A program made the position numbers and the translations under genes. This document shows positions 27,626 to 35,114 of a stretch of 64,000 nt of DNA, in pieces. How positions within the stretch are numbered: position 1 is the first letter of the stretch; the number at the start of each line of letters is the position of its first letter. Origin of the DNA: Maricaulis sp. (GTDB lineage Bacteria > Pseudomonadota > Alphaproteobacteria > Caulobacterales > Maricaulaceae). The notes below the pieces were generated by a model. It saw only the letters and a program-made list of their open reading frames with translations. It did no database searches and was not told where the DNA came from. The stretch is from positions 129,018 through 193,017 of the forward strand of contig NZMJ01000046.1 in NCBI GenBank assembly GCA_002692855.1. Direction: 5' to 3'.

Positions 27626-27649
27626 GCTGAAACTCAGCCTGGACGACAA

Positions 27650-27680
27650 GGGGCGGCTCCCACGGGGGCCGCCCCTTTTT
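27650..27680 (+). terminator. Rho-independent terminator after the peptidase gene
   Basis: Perfect 8-base inverted repeat GGGGCGGC / GCCGCCCC with a 10-base loop, followed by five T on the plus strand. It lies 25 bases after the peptidase stop codon. Confidence 0.88.
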
Positions 27681-27688
27681 CGTGCGCC

Positions 27689-28297
27689 CTAGCCTTCGAT
27701 ACGGAAGTTCAGCGTGGTCTGGCGTCCGCTTCGCGCGACATTCACGCCGTCAACGCGCCGCGGATTGAACCGCCACCGCTCTACGGCACGCTCCGCCGCC
27801 CGGACAAAGCCGCTATTGGTGCAGTTCGCGGCTACATCGAACGGCGTTCCATCCGCCGCGATCCCGTAGGTGACGACGCAATCGCCCTCCACGCCCTGAT
27901 TGAGCAGGCGCGGCGGATAGGTCGGCTCGATCCGCACCACCGGTGTCTCGTCCCGGTTGTCCGGCATGGTGAACGTCGTTGCCCCGAGTTCGAGCCCGCC
28001 AATGTTTGGCAGGGAGGCGATGGATACGGCGACAGGGGCCGCATCGACCGCCGCGGGACTGCTGTCGAGCCTGACCGGAGGAGGAGGCGGCTCGACTGGT
28101 TCTACCGAGTCAAGTTCGTATCCCGGCGGATCAAAGTCGATCTCCGGGACCTGCGGGAAAATGTCGATTTCAACATCGGGCAGAACCGGTTCGGGCAGAT
28201 GTTCGACGCGGATCAGCATCATCATCCCGAGAAACAGAAAGAATGTAATCGTTGCTGCGACAGGCATGCCGCTCGCCATGCGTAATATACGGCTCAT
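27689..28297 (-). CDS. TonB-family energy transducer (orphan copy)
   Basis: Links the inner-membrane proton motive force to outer-membrane receptors. In 202 residues: one N-terminal helix (VAATITFFLFLGMMMLI), a Pro/Glu/Asp-rich periplasmic spacer (EPVEPPPPPVRLD), and a C-terminal TonB domain with IEPTYPPRLLNQGVEGDCVV and AVERWRFNPRRVDG. Closely related to the TonB at 30.1 kb, but no exbB or exbD adjoins it, so it probably shares the partners of that operon. GGGGAGG just upstream supports the ATG at 28297. A palindrome at 28353 may control it. Confidence 0.92.
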   Translation of the reverse strand: MSRILRMASGMPVAATITFFLFLGMMMLIRVEHLPEPVLPDVEIDIFPQVPEIDFDPPGYELDSVEPVEPPPPPVRLDSSPAAVDAAPVAVSIASLPNIGGLELGATTFTMPDNRDETPVVRIEPTYPPRLLNQGVEGDCVVTYGIAADGTPFDVAANCTNSGFVRAAERAVERWRFNPRRVDGVNVARSGRQTTLNFRIEG

Positions 28298-28435: not shown

Positions 28436-28465
28436 AAAAAAGGCCCCGGTTTCACCGGGGCCTTT
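28436..28465 (-). terminator. Terminator of the TonB energisation operon
   Basis: AGGCCCCGGT / ACCGGGGCCT is a perfect 10-base inverted repeat with a TTC loop. On the minus strand it is followed by a run of T (AAAAAA on the plus strand), and it lies about 30 bases after the stop of the TPR gene. Confidence 0.9.
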
Positions 28466-28492
28466 CCAATTCACGGATCAAACCTGAAAGCG

Positions 28493-30031
28493 TCAGCCTT
28501 CCTGGTTCTCGCGATCTTCTTCCGCCGCAGCAGCAGAGGCCGCAGCGGGATCCTGTTCGGCCTGGTCGCCGAGCGGGTCACCGAAGCGGTTGTAGTAAGG
28601 CGAGCATTCTTCCGGCAGATCCAGGATCAGACGGCCCGTTTCCGGATCGACATTGCCCAGGAGGACGGAGGTTTCGCGCTGGTCCTCGACCGAGAAACGG
28701 CACGAGTCACGGCGCAGCTGCTCGAGGATACGCGGGCGTTCCTGCTCGAAGCGGATTTCCTCGCGCACGAAGCGGGCCCAGCCCTCGGCGGTGCGGCGCG
28801 ATTCACCGAATTGCGCCCCCCGGTCAAAGGCTTCGATCGCCGACTGGCGCTCGCCCAGCTCGTAGCGGATATTGCCAAGCAGAACCCAGGCATTGCCGGT
28901 CTGGCGCAGACCGCCGCGATTGAGTGCGGACTCGATGGCACTGGTCGCCGCCTGCAATTCACCCTGCTGATAGAGCGCCTCACCCAGCTTCAGATAGTTT
29001 TCGCCGGCATTGGTCATTTCCGCGAGCGTCCGCAGCACCGGAATGGCCCGGTCCCATTCACGGGCCTGGCGCCACATGTTGGCGAGCAGTTCGACATTCG
29101 ACTGCGTACGCTCGACCCGGCCCGCATTCATCTCGCGCTCCAGGATGCTGGCACCGCGATAGGGCAGATCATAGAAGCTGTAATACTGGGCCAGGCGCTC
29201 GATCTCGCGCCCTTCCGTTAGCATCCCGTTGATATACATGATCTTGTTGACTTCGAACGCATCTTCTTCGCGATCGTTCTGGGCCAGCAGGGACGCGTAG
29301 GATGTCCAGATATTCTTCTCGGTCGGCCAGCGCGCAGCCATCTCACCGATGATCCGCATCTGGTCGGCAGTGCGGTCCAGCGACTGGTAGTAGTACAGCA
29401 CCAGGTTGAAGTGACGGCGCTCTTTCGGGTTGGCACCATTATACGCCTGCTCGGCATACCGCAGCCCTTCCGGGAAACGGTCAGCCTGGGCATAGGCCTG
29501 GGCCAGCATCATCGCGAGGCGTTCGTTGATCTCGCCGCCGGCACGGGCCGCCGCCTGGATCTCGTCAATGCCCTCATTGTAGCGCTCATTGGCGATCAGG
29601 AGCTGACCGATATTGATGCGCAGTCCGACGGTTTCGTCCGTGTTCAGGATGCCGGTCGCGATCGCATCACGCCAGTCACGGATCGCCGAGTCGAGACGCT
29701 CGGTCTCGTAATAGGCCCGGCCGCGCAGCTGCAGGGCAATGGCACGCTCGTAGTTGTTGATCCCGGAACGGCCGAGCGCCCGGTCCAGCTGGGTGATCGA
29801 CTCGCCCCACTGGTCGTTCGACTGGAGTTCCTGGGCGCGAAGAACGATTTCACCGATTTCCGCCGAGAAGGTGCGGTCGGCGGCAGCCTCCTCTTCGGAC
29901 TGGGCATCGTTCTGATTGCGCCGCTGCGCGTCGGCATCGGGCGTCATCAGGCCCAACAGACCGGCGCTGCATGCCGCCGCCATGAGAAGACGGAGGGGGA
30001 AACGGCCCGGTGCGTTCGTTGACAGCATCAT
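28493..30031 (-). CDS. Periplasmic TPR-repeat protein, last gene of the TonB operon
   Basis: A 512-residue exported protein. A signal peptide ends near DADAQRRNQ (about residue 36), followed by an acidic linker, then helical repeats of TPR type (AIALQLRGRAYYETERLDSAIRDW, GNAWVLLGNIRYELGERQSAIEAFDRG). The C terminus holds a Cys in RRDSCRFSV, another in LPEECSPYYNRFGDP and an Ala/Glu-rich tail. TPR proteins regularly close operons of the DUF3450/TtpC/TonB2 type; they are thought to assist TonB complexes in the periplasm (established context, mechanism not firm). AGGAG precedes the ATG. Confidence 0.88.
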   Translation of the reverse strand: MMLSTNAPGRFPLRLLMAAACSAGLLGLMTPDADAQRRNQNDAQSEEEAAADRTFSAEIGEIVLRAQELQSNDQWGESITQLDRALGRSGINNYERAIALQLRGRAYYETERLDSAIRDWRDAIATGILNTDETVGLRINIGQLLIANERYNEGIDEIQAAARAGGEINERLAMMLAQAYAQADRFPEGLRYAEQAYNGANPKERRHFNLVLYYYQSLDRTADQMRIIGEMAARWPTEKNIWTSYASLLAQNDREEDAFEVNKIMYINGMLTEGREIERLAQYYSFYDLPYRGASILEREMNAGRVERTQSNVELLANMWRQAREWDRAIPVLRTLAEMTNAGENYLKLGEALYQQGELQAATSAIESALNRGGLRQTGNAWVLLGNIRYELGERQSAIEAFDRGAQFGESRRTAEGWARFVREEIRFEQERPRILEQLRRDSCRFSVEDQRETSVLLGNVDPETGRLILDLPEECSPYYNRFGDPLGDQAEQDPAAASAAAAEEDRENQEG

Positions 30032-30122
30032 TCACGCTCTCCTGCGCGCCCGTTAAGGCGTCTTGATGAGGCATTCCGCCTTACTGTGACTGCCACGCGA
30101 GCGCGGCAGCATCTTCCTGCGA

Positions 30123-30737
30123 TCAGTCAGCCAGCTGGAAGATGAACTGGGTTTCAACGCCGGCACGCGAGACCGGAACACCGTCGACCACCTTCGGATT
30201 GTAGCGCCAGCGTTCGACGGCGCGGCGGGCCGCACTCTCGAACAGCGAGCTCGAACAACGAAGGATCTGGATATTCGTCGGTGTGCCATCCGGCGTCACG
30301 TCGAAGCGCACATTGCAGGTGCCTTCAACGCCCCGCTCGGCCGCGCGCGGCGGATATTGCGGCTCGATCCGCACCAGAGGCTGGGCGTCACGGTCCGAAA
30401 CCGAGAAATTGACGTTCTGCGAGTTCAGCTGGGGGGCTTCGAACCGCGGGATTTCACCCACGATTGTCGACAGGCCCTCGGTCGGCTGCGACGCGCGCTG
30501 ACGCTCGATTTGCGGCGGCGGCGGCGGCGGCGTGACCTGATCCACGTCGCGAATATCGACATTTCGCTGACGCGCCAGTTCCTCGACTTCCGGACGGATG
30601 TCGATCTGGACCTCGGCGATTTCGTCGTCCTCGATTTCGCTGTCGGTGAAGATCAGCGCCTGCATCAACATGAACAGGCCGAAGGTGACGATGGCCGCAA
30701 TCGGAATGCCGATGATCAGTCTGAGAATGCCTGGCAT
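30123..30737 (-). CDS. tonB: TonB-family energy transducer (TonB2 type)
   Basis: A 204-residue TonB: one N-terminal helix (IPIAAIVTFGLFMLMQALIF), a short acidic spacer with a Pro run (VTPPPPPPQIER), and a C-terminal domain with IEPQYPPRAAERGVEGTCNV and AVERWRYNPKVVDG. The spacer is short, as in the TonB2 group of Vibrio. Conserved in position after two exbD genes, it should be energised by the ExbB/ExbD pair encoded upstream. The gene ends 91 bases before the TPR gene, a gap that holds a small imperfect hairpin. Confidence 0.93.
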   Translation of the reverse strand: MPGILRLIIGIPIAAIVTFGLFMLMQALIFTDSEIEDDEIAEVQIDIRPEVEELARQRNVDIRDVDQVTPPPPPPQIERQRASQPTEGLSTIVGEIPRFEAPQLNSQNVNFSVSDRDAQPLVRIEPQYPPRAAERGVEGTCNVRFDVTPDGTPTNIQILRCSSSLFESAARRAVERWRYNPKVVDGVPVSRAGVETQFIFQLAD

Positions 30738-30747
30738 GTCGACCTCC

Positions 30748-31152
30748 CTAGTCGTTCCGCGTCGAAATATTCACCCGGATGCCCATATTGCCAACGATCT
30801 GCTGGACTTCGAGCACGAGGCCGATACTGGCGTCCTGGTCACCCTGGATCATCGCTTCAGCGCGGGGATTTTCCTCGACGAGCTGTTCCACGGCACCGCG
30901 GACACCATTGATGTCGTAGATACGGCGGTTGATCCAGACTTCGTCCTCACCGGTGATCGCGATCAGGATGGAGGGGCGCTGCCGCTCCGTCGTGGCCGCA
31001 TCGGGACGCTCGACCTGAACGCCCGGCTCCTTGATGAAGACCGAGGTCACGATGAAGAAGATCAGAAGGATGAACACCACGTCCAGCATGGGCGTCATGT
31101 TCAGTTCGACTTCTTCTTCCTCAGTGTTTACGCGGCTAGCTCTGCGAGCCAT
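30748..31152 (-). CDS. exbD: Biopolymer transport protein ExbD (second)
   Basis: A 134-residue single-helix protein that forms the proton channel of the TonB motor with ExbB. The helix MTPMLDVVFILLIFFIVTSVF carries the essential Asp (about residue 24), and the periplasmic domain follows (EDEVWINRRIYDINGVRGAVEQL). The leader TEEEEVELN is acidic. It ends 10 bases before tonB. Confidence 0.93.
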   Translation of the reverse strand: MARRASRVNTEEEEVELNMTPMLDVVFILLIFFIVTSVFIKEPGVQVERPDAATTERQRPSILIAITGEDEVWINRRIYDINGVRGAVEQLVEENPRAEAMIQGDQDASIGLVLEVQQIVGNMGIRVNISTRND

Positions 31153-31185
31153 GGCCTAAACTCCATTGCATCAGGCTTGCGCCGA

Positions 31186-31596
31186 TTATTGGTCTGGACG
31201 CTGTGCACCCTGGATCGAAACCGGGATACCGTTCGCCCGCATGTCGTCCCAGATCAGCACCACGATGCCGTGATCGGCTTCGTATTGCGGCGCGATCAGA
31301 ACGGCACTGCGCGGGTTCTCGGCCCGGAAACGCGACACCGCAGCCAGCACACGTTCCGGATCGGTCTGTGTCTGGTTCACGAACACCCGGTTCTGGTCAT
31401 TGACGTCGACCAGGATGACGGGCGCCGGGTTTTGCGGCGTATCTTCCGACGAGGGCGGAGGCTGCATGTTCAGGCCCTCTTCCTGGAGGAAGGTTGCCGT
31501 CACGATGAAGAAGATCAGAAGGATGAAGACGATATCCAGCATCGGGGTCATGTTGACCTCGGCCTGATCGGCTTTCCTGTTGTGTCTGCGTCTCAT
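31186..31596 (-). CDS. exbD: Biopolymer transport protein ExbD (first)
   Basis: A 136-residue paralogue of the neighbouring ExbD. The helix MTPMLDIVFILLIFFIVTATF keeps the essential Asp, while the periplasmic domain differs and begins with a Pro-rich, acidic segment (PPPSSEDTPQNPAP). ATG 31596 was chosen because MRRRHNRK leads directly into the helix; the longer ORF in the track runs through exbB in another frame. Two ExbD genes in a row are usual in DUF3450-type TonB operons. Confidence 0.92.
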   Translation of the reverse strand: MRRRHNRKADQAEVNMTPMLDIVFILLIFFIVTATFLQEEGLNMQPPPSSEDTPQNPAPVILVDVNDQNRVFVNQTQTDPERVLAAVSRFRAENPRSAVLIAPQYEADHGIVVLIWDDMRANGIPVSIQGAQRPDQ

Positions 31597-31600
31597 CCGA

Positions 31601-32119
31601 TTACAGCCCCAGCTCGAGATCGTCGGCCAGTGCAGCGGTACGGTGCTGCGCCATGCGTTCGATCTGGTTTGAGAACAGAAGTCCGGAAAGTGCTGCCACC
31701 ATGCCGGCCATCGTCGGGATCGTCGCGCGTGACACACCGGCCGACATGGCGCGGGCGTCGGACGATCCCAGGATCGCCATCACGTCGAACACCGAGACCA
31801 TCCCCGTCACCGTACCCAGCAGCCCCAGCAGGGGTGCAATGGCGACGAGCGTCTTGATCAGCTCGACATTCTGGTAGTTGCGTTGCTTCACCTCCGAGAT
31901 CAGCTGATCGCGGATCGCATGAGCATGCCAGGACTTGTGGTCCTCGCGTGCCGACCATTGGCGGACGGCGCGCTTGGCATGCCCTTGTTCTGCGAGTCCG
32001 AAATAGACCAGCCGCTCGAGGATGAAGGCCCACATGACGAACGTAGCGATCATGATCACCACGAGCACGGGGCCTCCCCGCTCGAGAAATTCCCGGAGGC
32101 CGTTGATTGCCGCATCCAT
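31601..32119 (-). CDS. exbB: MotA/TolQ/ExbB proton channel family protein (ExbB2)
   Basis: A 172-residue three-helix ExbB. Helix 1 is GGPVLVVIMIATFVMWAFIL; the pair after the cytoplasmic region reads VAIAPLLGLLGTVTGMVSVFDVMA and TIPTMAGMVAALSGLLFSNQI, both family signatures. It is short because the periplasmic and C-terminal extensions of E. coli ExbB are missing. Four bases separate it from the first exbD. Confidence 0.94.
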   Translation of the reverse strand: MDAAINGLREFLERGGPVLVVIMIATFVMWAFILERLVYFGLAEQGHAKRAVRQWSAREDHKSWHAHAIRDQLISEVKQRNYQNVELIKTLVAIAPLLGLLGTVTGMVSVFDVMAILGSSDARAMSAGVSRATIPTMAGMVAALSGLLFSNQIERMAQHRTAALADDLELGL

Positions 32120-32143
32120 ATGCGTGCCTCCTTCAGCTGGCCC

Positions 32144-33520
32144 TTAGGCCGGACGACGTTCTTCAGCGGACCGCGCAACCATGCCGGCAGCCTGTTCTTC
32201 GAGCACCTGCTGGACACCGCGAGCGAAGCTGGCAGCGAAGCTGTGGACGAAGAGCAGCGGAATGGCCGAGACGAGACCGAGAACCGTGGTCACGAGGGCT
32301 TCGGAAATACCGCCCGCCATGATCTTCGGATCGCCGGTGCCGAACAGCGTGATCTGGGTAAAGGTCCGGATCATGCCCGTAACGGTACCCAGAAGGCCGA
32401 GCAGCGGAGCAATACCGGCTGCGAGCTTGAGGAAGTTCAGGCCAAACTCGAGCTTCGGCGTCTCCCGCAGGATGGCCTCGTCGAGCTTCAGCTCGATCGT
32501 CTCGATATCGCGGTCCTTGTATTCCTCATACACACCCATGACACGGCCGAGCGAGTTGCCACGCGACGGCGTGGAACGGCGCTTCTGGGCCGAGACCGCG
32601 GCCGATTCCAGCATCAGCTGGACCAGGCGCAGCAGGCCGAAGGCCAGCGAGACCGCCAGCAGGCCGAGGATGATGTAACCCACGGTACGGCCCTGCTGGA
32701 TACGCTCGGTCAGGTTCGGGACGTCCTTGTAGATGGCCAGAAGACCGCCACGGGACGGATCGACCGGACCCATCACGATTTCATCGCTGCTGGCATTATA
32801 GACCGCATCGGCAGCCGCCGTGATGTTCGACGGGGGCTGGCGCTCAAGCGGAGTGAGGTTGTAACCGGCTTCGCCTTCGTTCCACTGGACGAAGACAACG
32901 CCGCCATCCTGGGCCCAGGCGACAAACGGACCGACGCGGGTCACCGGAACCGGCTGACCGTTGCCAAGACCATTCACCTGGCGCTCCCAGGTCACGACCT
33001 GACCCTGGGCAATCATTTCTTCCAGCATCCGGCGCCAGATCTGGTTCAGCTGCTGAACGCCCGGCAGCGCGCGGCTGTCGGCCAGTTCGGCCAGCTGGGC
33101 CGTCCGGTTCGGGAACTGGGCGGACGTGACCGAGCCATCGATGATGGCTGCGAACTCGCCGGCGGACTGACGTGCAGCACCGAACAGTTCGCCAAACTCG
33201 CCCTGGGCTTCGCGGAGCTGGGCATCCAGCTCGTCGATGCGGGCTTCGTTGGTGTCATACTGCGTCCGGATTCCGGCCGCCTGACCTTCCAGGGCAGCCA
33301 GCTGCGAGCGGGCCTGGGCCAGAAGGGCAGCCTGCTGGCCGCGGGACTCGCGGAATTCCTGCAGGCGGCGCTGGTTTTCTGCGCTCATCTCACGGGCGTC
33401 GGAACGCACGCGGTTGAGCAGTTCGTTGATGGAGGAAGCCGGCTCCTGAGCCATGGCACTTCCTGCGAGCGCTGCGCCGAGCGAGACGGCAGCAGCGAGA
33501 ATCTTGAATGACTTTTTCAT
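32144..33520 (-). CDS. Large ExbB-like protein (TtpC-like)
   Basis: A 458-residue protein with signal peptide (AAAVSLGAALAGSAMAQ), a periplasmic coiled-coil segment (about residues 28-105), a middle domain, then three helices of the MotA/TolQ/ExbB domain with LKLAAGIAPLLGLLGTVTGMI and EALVTTVLGLVSAIPLLFVH. This combination is TtpC, an extra component essential for TonB2 systems in Vibrio. The TtpC name is from architecture and context. It lies between DUF3450 and exbB, as in other known clusters. Confidence 0.9.
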   Translation of the reverse strand: MKKSFKILAAAVSLGAALAGSAMAQEPASSINELLNRVRSDAREMSAENQRRLQEFRESRGQQAALLAQARSQLAALEGQAAGIRTQYDTNEARIDELDAQLREAQGEFGELFGAARQSAGEFAAIIDGSVTSAQFPNRTAQLAELADSRALPGVQQLNQIWRRMLEEMIAQGQVVTWERQVNGLGNGQPVPVTRVGPFVAWAQDGGVVFVQWNEGEAGYNLTPLERQPPSNITAAADAVYNASSDEIVMGPVDPSRGGLLAIYKDVPNLTERIQQGRTVGYIILGLLAVSLAFGLLRLVQLMLESAAVSAQKRRSTPSRGNSLGRVMGVYEEYKDRDIETIELKLDEAILRETPKLEFGLNFLKLAAGIAPLLGLLGTVTGMIRTFTQITLFGTGDPKIMAGGISEALVTTVLGLVSAIPLLFVHSFAASFARGVQQVLEEQAAGMVARSAEERRPA

Positions 33521-33538
33521 CGCGTTGATCTCCTCAGC

Positions 33539-34312
33539 CTATCGAGCGTCTTCCGAGCCCGGCATCGGCGCGGTGAACAGGTCCGGGGTGGTGACTTCCT
33601 GAGCAATACGGAATGCGCCGGTAACGGCGGAATTGCTGGCTCCGGAAACACGTTCCCACTCGGTGTTGTAACGGTGGCGGATGAACAGGTCGCCGTTCGG
33701 CATGTCGCGGATCAGGGCGACCCGGCCAATGCGAAGCGTCGGCACATCCGTCGGAACGCCATCGATGTCGACCGTCTCGTCATACGAGTCGATCTGGCGG
33801 CCATAGGAGGCCTCGATGTCATAGGCGTTCAGGATCAGGCGGTAACGTTCGGCCGCGGAAATTTCCGGATTGTCCAGGTCTTCATAGAGCTGGGCGATGC
33901 GGGTTTCGCGGGCATCGACGTTGAACGGCAGGTCCAGAGCGACGAAGTTTTCGAGGTTCTCGACCATTTCGCGCATCATCGGAAGGATGTCGACGCCGAC
34001 ATTGCCCACCCGTTCGATCTGCGTCTCCAGGGACGTGATCTCGTTCTGCTGTGCCTGGAGGAAGACGCGCTGCTGCTCGATATAGAGCCGCTGGCTTTCC
34101 ACCTGCTGCTGGAGCGCGCGGTACTGCAGCTCCATGTCCGTTGCGTCATCGTCCAGCTCGTCGATCTGCCGCTGGGCCGCCGCGCCATCCTGGGTGGATT
34201 GCTGGGCGGTGCGCAGCACATCGTTGATCTGAGCCTGCGCCACACCACCGACCGTTCCGGTCAGAAGAGCCGCCGCTACGGACGCGCTGAGCCAATACCT
34301 CATCTTCGCCAT
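33539..34312 (-). CDS. DUF3450 family periplasmic coiled-coil protein, first gene of the TonB operon
   Basis: A 257-residue exported protein. Signal peptide (SASVAAALLTGTVGGVAQAQ), then a long coiled coil (about residues 45-100, ESQRLYIEQQRVFLQAQQNEI), then a globular part (ENLENFVALDLPFNVDARETRI is the family signature). DUF3450 regularly precedes ttpC/exbB/exbD/tonB in gamma- and alphaproteobacteria. Start at 34312 gives MAKMRYW directly before the signal peptide. Since the next genes follow with gaps of 4-33 bases, this is the head of a seven-gene operon. Confidence 0.92.
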   Translation of the reverse strand: MAKMRYWLSASVAAALLTGTVGGVAQAQINDVLRTAQQSTQDGAAAQRQIDELDDDATDMELQYRALQQQVESQRLYIEQQRVFLQAQQNEITSLETQIERVGNVGVDILPMMREMVENLENFVALDLPFNVDARETRIAQLYEDLDNPEISAAERYRLILNAYDIEASYGRQIDSYDETVDIDGVPTDVPTLRIGRVALIRDMPNGDLFIRHRYNTEWERVSGASNSAVTGAFRIAQEVTTPDLFTAPMPGSEDAR

Positions 34313-34840: not shown

Positions 34841-34915
34841 TGGCTGGGGCGCCAGGATTCGAACCTGGGAATGGCGGTACCAAAAACCGCTGCCTTACCA
34901 CTTGGCCACGCCCCA
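34841..34915 (-). tRNA. tRNA-Gln (anticodon TTG)
   Basis: Complete 75-base cloverleaf on the minus strand. The acceptor stem pairs TGGGGCG with CGCCCCA, the anticodon loop reads TTTTGGT (anticodon TTG), the T arm contains GGTTCGAATCC, and CCA is encoded. It diverges from tRNA-Pro 120 bases away. Confidence 0.96.
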
Positions 34916-35037: not shown

Positions 35038-35114
35038 CGGAGTATAGCTCAGCCTGGTAGAGCACCGTCTTCGGGAGGCGGGGGTCGCAAGTTCGAATCT
35101 TGCTACTCCGACCA
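35038..35114 (+). tRNA. tRNA-Pro (anticodon CGG)
   Basis: Complete 77-base cloverleaf. CGGAGTA pairs with TACTCCG in the acceptor stem, the anticodon loop reads TTCGGGA (anticodon CGG, codon CCG), the T arm has AGTTCGAATCT, and CCA is encoded. It lies 153 bases upstream of sppA on the same strand. Confidence 0.96.

Follow-up and report, generated by a model that had tools for sequence, protein, structure and literature searches.

The TonB2 and TonB3 systems of Vibrio combine core Ton proteins with three accessory proteins. In Vibrio vulnificus, the tonB2 operon has the order ttpB2-ttpC2-exbB2-exbD2-tonB2-ttpD2, in which TtpB2 is a DUF3450 protein and TtpD2 a TPR protein (PMC6957404). TtpB2, TtpC2 and TtpD2 are each required in Vibrio; V. 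vulnificus cannot use siderophores through TonB2 if it lacks TtpB2 or TtpD2 (PMC6957404). Xanthomonas campestris carries a tandem exbD pair in one Ton cluster, tonB-exbB-exbD1-exbD2, where the pectate response, but not iron uptake, depends on exbD2 (PMC3551730). Periplasmic extensions of ExbB have also been described: the HasB-linked long ExbB of Serratia and Alphaproteobacteria has one at its N-terminus (PMC9008036), and a 2025 study had already listed DUF3450 as one of the domains appended N-terminally to ExbB-type proteins (PMC12505986).

It has long been asked why a Ton motor contains two ExbDs and whether both act alike. Cryo-EM has seen ExbD asymmetry in the membrane and has not revealed the role of each periplasmic domain (reviewed in PMC12905483). 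The stretch of ExbD spanning residues 92-121 reportedly plays a part in contacts between ExbDs and between ExbD and TonB (PMC11658791).

A TonB2/TonB3-type operon with one inserted exbD

The window analysed here, a stretch of 64,000 nucleotides from the genome of a marine alphaproteobacterium (Maricaulis sp.), holds seven genes on the minus strand, running from 34312 to 28493 in the order ttpB (DUF3450)-ttpC-exbB-exbD-exbD-tonB-ttpD (TPR). The order and span given in an earlier note on this DNA are borne out. The features of the region are as follows:

33539..34312, minus strand: ttpB, a secreted DUF3450 protein with a helix of ~100 residues and a C-terminal beta domain (PF11932, 2.6e-66; predicted fold; counterpart of V. 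vulnificus TtpB2, PMC6957404)
32144..33520, minus strand: ttpC, in which a DUF3450-like periplasmic domain is joined to a channel domain of the ExbB/TolQ type (MotA_ExbB, 1.5e-28; weak DUF3450 match; hhalign to TtpB; C-terminal half matching ExbB/TolQ in fold)
31601..32119, minus strand: exbB, a short ExbB (MotA_ExbB, 1e-21; channel threonines retained)
31186..31596, minus strand: exbD-A, the first ExbD, with the transmembrane (TM) Asp kept, Q at the D107 position, D120 kept and a Pro-rich linker after the TM helix (PF02472, 2.3e-29; clade A; residues)
30748..31152, minus strand: exbD-B, the second ExbD, with the TM Asp and D107 kept and Q at the D120 position (PF02472, 1.1e-23; clade B, nearer single ExbDs; residues)
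30123..30737, minus strand: tonB, the main TonB (TonB_C, 4.2e-22)
28493..30031, minus strand: ttpD, a TPR protein with an N-terminal signal-like sequence (TPR families, best 2.2e-12; same place as V. vulnificus TtpD2, PMC6957404)
28437..28467, minus strand: intrinsic terminator hairpin closing the operon just 3' of the TPR gene (-24.3 kcal/mol, z -4.66, then a T run)
27689..28297, minus strand: second tonB, a separate unit beyond the terminator that shares 38% identity with the main TonB (TonB_C, 2.4e-11; sequence and trees)
27648..27677, minus strand: hairpin after the second tonB, a possible terminator with no long T run (-26.7 kcal/mol, z -2.23)

Gaps of only 4-91 nt separate the seven genes and suggest a single transcript for all of them. 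The hairpin at 28437-28467 was shown by direct folding, the terminator scan having missed it, and a promoter scan returned nothing above chance. The second tonB at 27689-28297, absent from the gene list of the earlier note, lies near the operon in many relatives as well; its membership of the operon was rejected because the terminator hairpin lies between. On the other side, tRNA-Gln (minus, 34841-34915) and tRNA-Pro (plus, 35038-35114) stand between the operon and a plus-strand sppA-like gene. On the plus strand, opposite ttpC, a 542-aa open frame at 31883-33511 of the window looks like a high-GC artefact.

The identical gene order was found in dozens of further genomes and is therefore not due to chance; the closest named loci are those of Oceanicaulis and Glycocaulis (Maricaulaceae). 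As the earlier note had proposed in describing a TonB2-type system with TtpC-like and DUF3450 parts, the operon has the same families in the same order as Vibrio TonB2/TonB3, with TtpB first and TtpD last. Unlike the Vibrio systems, it encodes two ExbDs rather than one, is followed downstream by a separate extra tonB and has no TonB1-type system beside it. A single ExbD is usual, if not strictly defining, for the TonB2/TonB3 type. The exact six-gene order occurs in 49/80 named loci, largely Gammaproteobacteria, and in 49/60 loci of a phylum-wide sample; with the V. vulnificus operon (PMC6957404), this makes six genes with one ExbD the usual form, and the description of the seven genes as the complete version of TonB2 does not hold. 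The operon is a Vibrio TonB2/TonB3-type energiser plus one inserted exbD. It resembles the X. campestris cluster in its tandem exbD pair, whereas that cluster as described comprises core Ton genes only and lacks ttpB, ttpC and ttpD (PMC3551730). The channel threonines, ExbD Asp25 and the ExbD periplasmic fold are common to the E. coli ExbB5-ExbD2-TonB motor, which differs in its homodimeric ExbD and in having no TtpB, TtpC or TtpD.

Outside the operon, the MotA_ExbB genes of the genome are only tolQ on contig C8 and one gene on C84, which we guess to be MotA-type, and the sole other ExbD-family gene is the tolR adjoining that tolQ; these genome-wide counts rest on an assembly of 173 contigs with 5.9% contamination. 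A Tol-Pal identity for the operon was rejected, as it has no tolB or tol-pal linkage and the tolQ/tolR/TolB cluster sits on the separate contig C8. The genome also gave 17 receptor-barrel matches, equivalent to about 16 genes for TonB-dependent receptors. With no other Ton-type exbB or exbD found, the operon is most likely the sole energiser for all ~16 receptors. Two more tandem TonB_C genes lie elsewhere in the genome (L081, G000:C65), and no exbB or exbD was detected nearby. At 4.07 Mb, the assembly (G000) is larger than those of two congeners (2.7-2.8 Mb) and contains equal-scoring matches on different contigs (e.g. C135/C155 and C99/C114); it probably holds duplicated or foreign contigs.

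TtpB, TtpC and the two channel proteins

TtpC consists of a MotA_ExbB channel domain behind a 250-residue periplasmic N-terminus. In Pfam, this N-terminus gives a weak full-length match to DUF3450 (0.0013). It aligns with TtpB in hhalign over 247 columns, the C-terminal strand motif among them, at a probability of 96 and an E of 1.2e-9, a value that applies to one comparison and a match that is partly coiled coil. The predicted folds of TtpB and of the TtpC N-terminus (pLDDT ~90) have the same order of elements, namely a helix of 90-100 residues, shorter helices, five strands, a helix and a strand; the prediction took the neighbouring genes as a single chain, a modelling tether that implies no real fusion, and gave good domain folds with no usable interface. 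The periplasmic half of TtpC is thus itself DUF3450-like. The earlier note had treated the TtpC coiled coil and DUF3450 as separate puzzles; by Pfam, hhalign and predicted fold, they are two copies of one domain. Since DUF3450 is already listed among ExbB appendages (PMC12505986), this is a refinement. In a Foldseek comparison with the PDB, matches for TtpC were confined to its ExbB/TolQ/MotA half, and no solved relative of DUF3450 was found. The HasB-linked long ExbB is alike in its periplasmic extension, but that extension averages ~50 residues, is Ala/Pro-rich in Serratia and is not DUF3450, and it belongs to a single ExbB (PMC9008036).

The domain common to both proteins suggests a stalk in which TtpB and TtpC pack together, and its presence in TtpC offers a concrete model for the pair. 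The roles of the DUF3450 and TPR proteins are not wholly open, since TtpB2 and TtpD2 are known to be essential in V. vulnificus; the same result supplies, for that species, the deletion test by which the earlier note could have been refuted (PMC6957404). Accessory genes vary in number among relatives. Seven loci of the same family (L086, L087, L093, L094, L095, L111 and L116) have ttpC preceded by a tandem pair of DUF3450 (ttpB-like) genes, of which the first is the more divergent, and at L087, L091, L093, L110, L131, L140 and L178 a further TPR (ttpD-like) gene, complete or split, adjoins the operon.

The operon encodes two ExbB-family proteins. Channel residues were numbered on an E. coli ExbB sequence that we take to be the correct reference; the alignment is unambiguous. 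T148 is kept in 129/129 and T181 in 128/129 TtpC proteins, both are kept in 126/126 short ExbBs, and the channel glycines, like the threonines, are retained almost without exception in TtpC and ExbB alike. By these residues, both proteins look channel-competent. They differ in the third TM helix, where positions 178 (L or T) and 180 (T or P) separate TtpC from ExbB with no exception among the aligned residues. Differences as fully diagnostic as these would suit a TtpC that is no part of the proton channel and serves as scaffold or regulator, with ExbB alone forming the ring, or TtpC and ExbB in two separate rings. At two gammaproteobacterial loci (L171 and L186), a full operon is followed downstream by a second block, ttpB-ttpC-exbD, and a short exbB was not detected in that block; from these, TtpC may need no ExbB in its ring. 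However, the channel glycines and both threonines are almost always kept in the two proteins, and both are present in every complete operon, so that a TtpC outside the channel or in its own ring is possible but doubtful.

Distribution and divergence of the two ExbDs

As a rule, the sampled alphaproteobacterial relatives carry the second ExbD, and some gammaproteobacteria have it too. Within the taxonomic order to which the Maricaulis genome belongs, all complete operons fetched contain an adjacent pair of exbD genes, and wherever a locus with two ExbDs was examined the two genes were neighbours. The earlier note's remark that the two ExbD periplasmic domains differ is supported: in the window, ExbD-A and ExbD-B are 28% identical in their periplasmic domains and 72% in the TM region. 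Alphaproteobacterial copies fall into a group A (support 63-80, depending on the tree) and a group B (92-94), a grouping that allows for swapped gene order in L065, L066 and L068; all single ExbDs fall outside A. Between the clades, the periplasmic domains average 22% identity, while the TM core and Asp25 are invariant and both copies have the ExbD/TolR periplasmic domain. Clade A has a proline-rich linker at the place of the ExbD intermolecular strand (strand described in PMC10771500), and no clade-A ExbD standing alone was found among the loci sampled.

Gammaproteobacterial pairs, except that of L136, fall among gammaproteobacterial singles and away from clade A (SH-aLRT 98), and the second copy of L319 nests with single ExbDs at 99. 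In a tree with more gammaproteobacterial pairs, A is recovered at 98 with one gammaproteobacterial copy (L136) inside it, and B is less tight. AU tests against a shared origin of the ExbD pairs gave p 0.229 and 0.063; independent origin of the gammaproteobacterial pairs is therefore likely but not established, and the repeats described below are perhaps not all independent. At L318 (G1221:C2), an adjacent, near-identical exbD pair that keeps both Asp in both copies marks a very recent duplication. The mirror-tree correlation of the two ExbDs is 0.75; it is confounded by shared ancestry and is not counted as evidence.

Two aspartates divided between two ExbDs

The copies differ at D107 and D120, both within residues 92-121. 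They are numbered on what we take to be the E. coli ExbD sequence, against which D25 and Y112 align where expected. Single ExbDs have D107 in 70/71 and D120 in 68/71 cases, and in further sets both Asp are found in 56/57 and then 58/59, the single-ExbD sets overlapping in a few genomes. At 52 alphaproteobacterial two-ExbD loci (about 47 distinct, some genomes having been fetched twice), copy A has D107 in 11/52 and D120 in 50/52, and copy B has D107 in 52/52 and D120 in 13/52. The window itself has Q107/D120 in ExbD-A and D107/Q120 in ExbD-B. Among gammaproteobacteria, first copies keep D107 in 6/19 and D120 in 19/19, and second copies keep D107 in 19/19 and D120 in 11/19. All 71 two-ExbD loci retain at least one D107 and at least one D120, and D107 is never lost from copy B or the second copy. 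This pattern was noticed after looking at the alignment, and the gammaproteobacterial order was chosen afterwards as a check that repeated it. The replacement of D120 is mostly by E, a mild change. L094 is the reverse of its nearest relatives at position 120, with E in copy A and D in copy B, and some two-ExbD loci have both Asp in both copies (e.g. L065, L068, L136, L226, L320 and L328).

This distribution suggests that the two ExbDs share the work done by a single ExbD elsewhere. An A2 or a B2 homodimer would each be without a residue that single ExbDs hardly ever lose, whereas an A:B pair keeps both, which favours an obligate, functionally split ExbD-A:ExbD-B pair. On this comparative evidence, such a pair is the most likely reading and probably the correct one, and the mixed dimer proposed in the earlier note is the arrangement best supported by the complementary loss of Asp. 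Counted against it are the both-Asp loci, the mildness of the D120 to E change and the dispensability of Xanthomonas exbD2 for iron uptake (PMC3551730). A fused-chain model of the two ExbDs gave good domain folds at a pTM of 0.56, with no interface seen.

The main rival holds that ExbD-A and ExbD-B form homodimers in two specialised motors with different substrates or TonBs, as proposed for exbD1 and exbD2 of Xanthomonas. That X. campestris requires exbD2 in the pectate response and not in iron uptake (PMC3551730) fits specialised ExbDs rather than an obligate pair; the second TonB gene near the operon and the TM Asp kept in both ExbDs agree with separate motors as well. Yet homodimers of either kind would be entirely without one Asp that 96-99% of single ExbDs retain, the losses in the two copies complement each other, with no locus in which either residue is lost from both copies, and the two exbD genes are adjacent wherever two were examined. 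We consider two specialised motors unlikely. Still less credible is a second ExbD kept for dosage, or as a redundant duplicate that drifts while its Asp losses remain neutral. Very recent duplicates do exist, such as the near-identical copies of L318, and ExbD periplasmic domains evolve fast, but in several alphaproteobacterial families both copies have been kept and their TM cores do not vary, and the losses are consistent by copy, D107 going from A or the first copy and D120 nearly always from B or the second. Neutral drift is disfavoured by this pattern and appears very improbable.

With an obligate pair as the preferred reading, the operon would work as follows. Protons flowing through a ring built of TtpC, of ExbB or of both would drive the ExbD pair, which would act on TonB, and TonB in turn would open the many TonB-dependent transporters that the genome encodes for the outer membrane. 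With one long-helix-plus-beta domain in common, TtpB and the TtpC periplasmic half would probably pack as a stalk from the ring into the periplasm, with TtpD probably serving as the periplasmic TPR adaptor of the stalk assembly. The ExbDs would form an obligate unlike pair, presumably a physical heterodimer, to which each brings a TM Asp; ExbD-B would supply the D107 function and ExbD-A the D120 function, both roles being filled elsewhere by a single ExbD as a homodimer.

While the system itself is known, the DUF3450-like half of TtpC, the channel threonines in both ExbB-like proteins, the distribution of the two-ExbD form and the split Asp residues are new here. No description of a two-ExbD form with split Asp residues, or of an ExbD heterodimer, was found in the open-licence literature, a coverage that most subscription papers fall outside. 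Such a division of labour between D107 and D120 predicts that ExbD dimers are functionally asymmetric. Tentatively, and at somewhat less than even chances, this asymmetry may hold for the ExbD dimers of Ton motors in general, one protomer needing D107 and the other D120, with tandem-exbD lineages having fixed it in two genes more than once to give an obligate heterodimer. If true, these lineages would constitute a natural residue-level map of ExbD asymmetry, showing which protomer does what.
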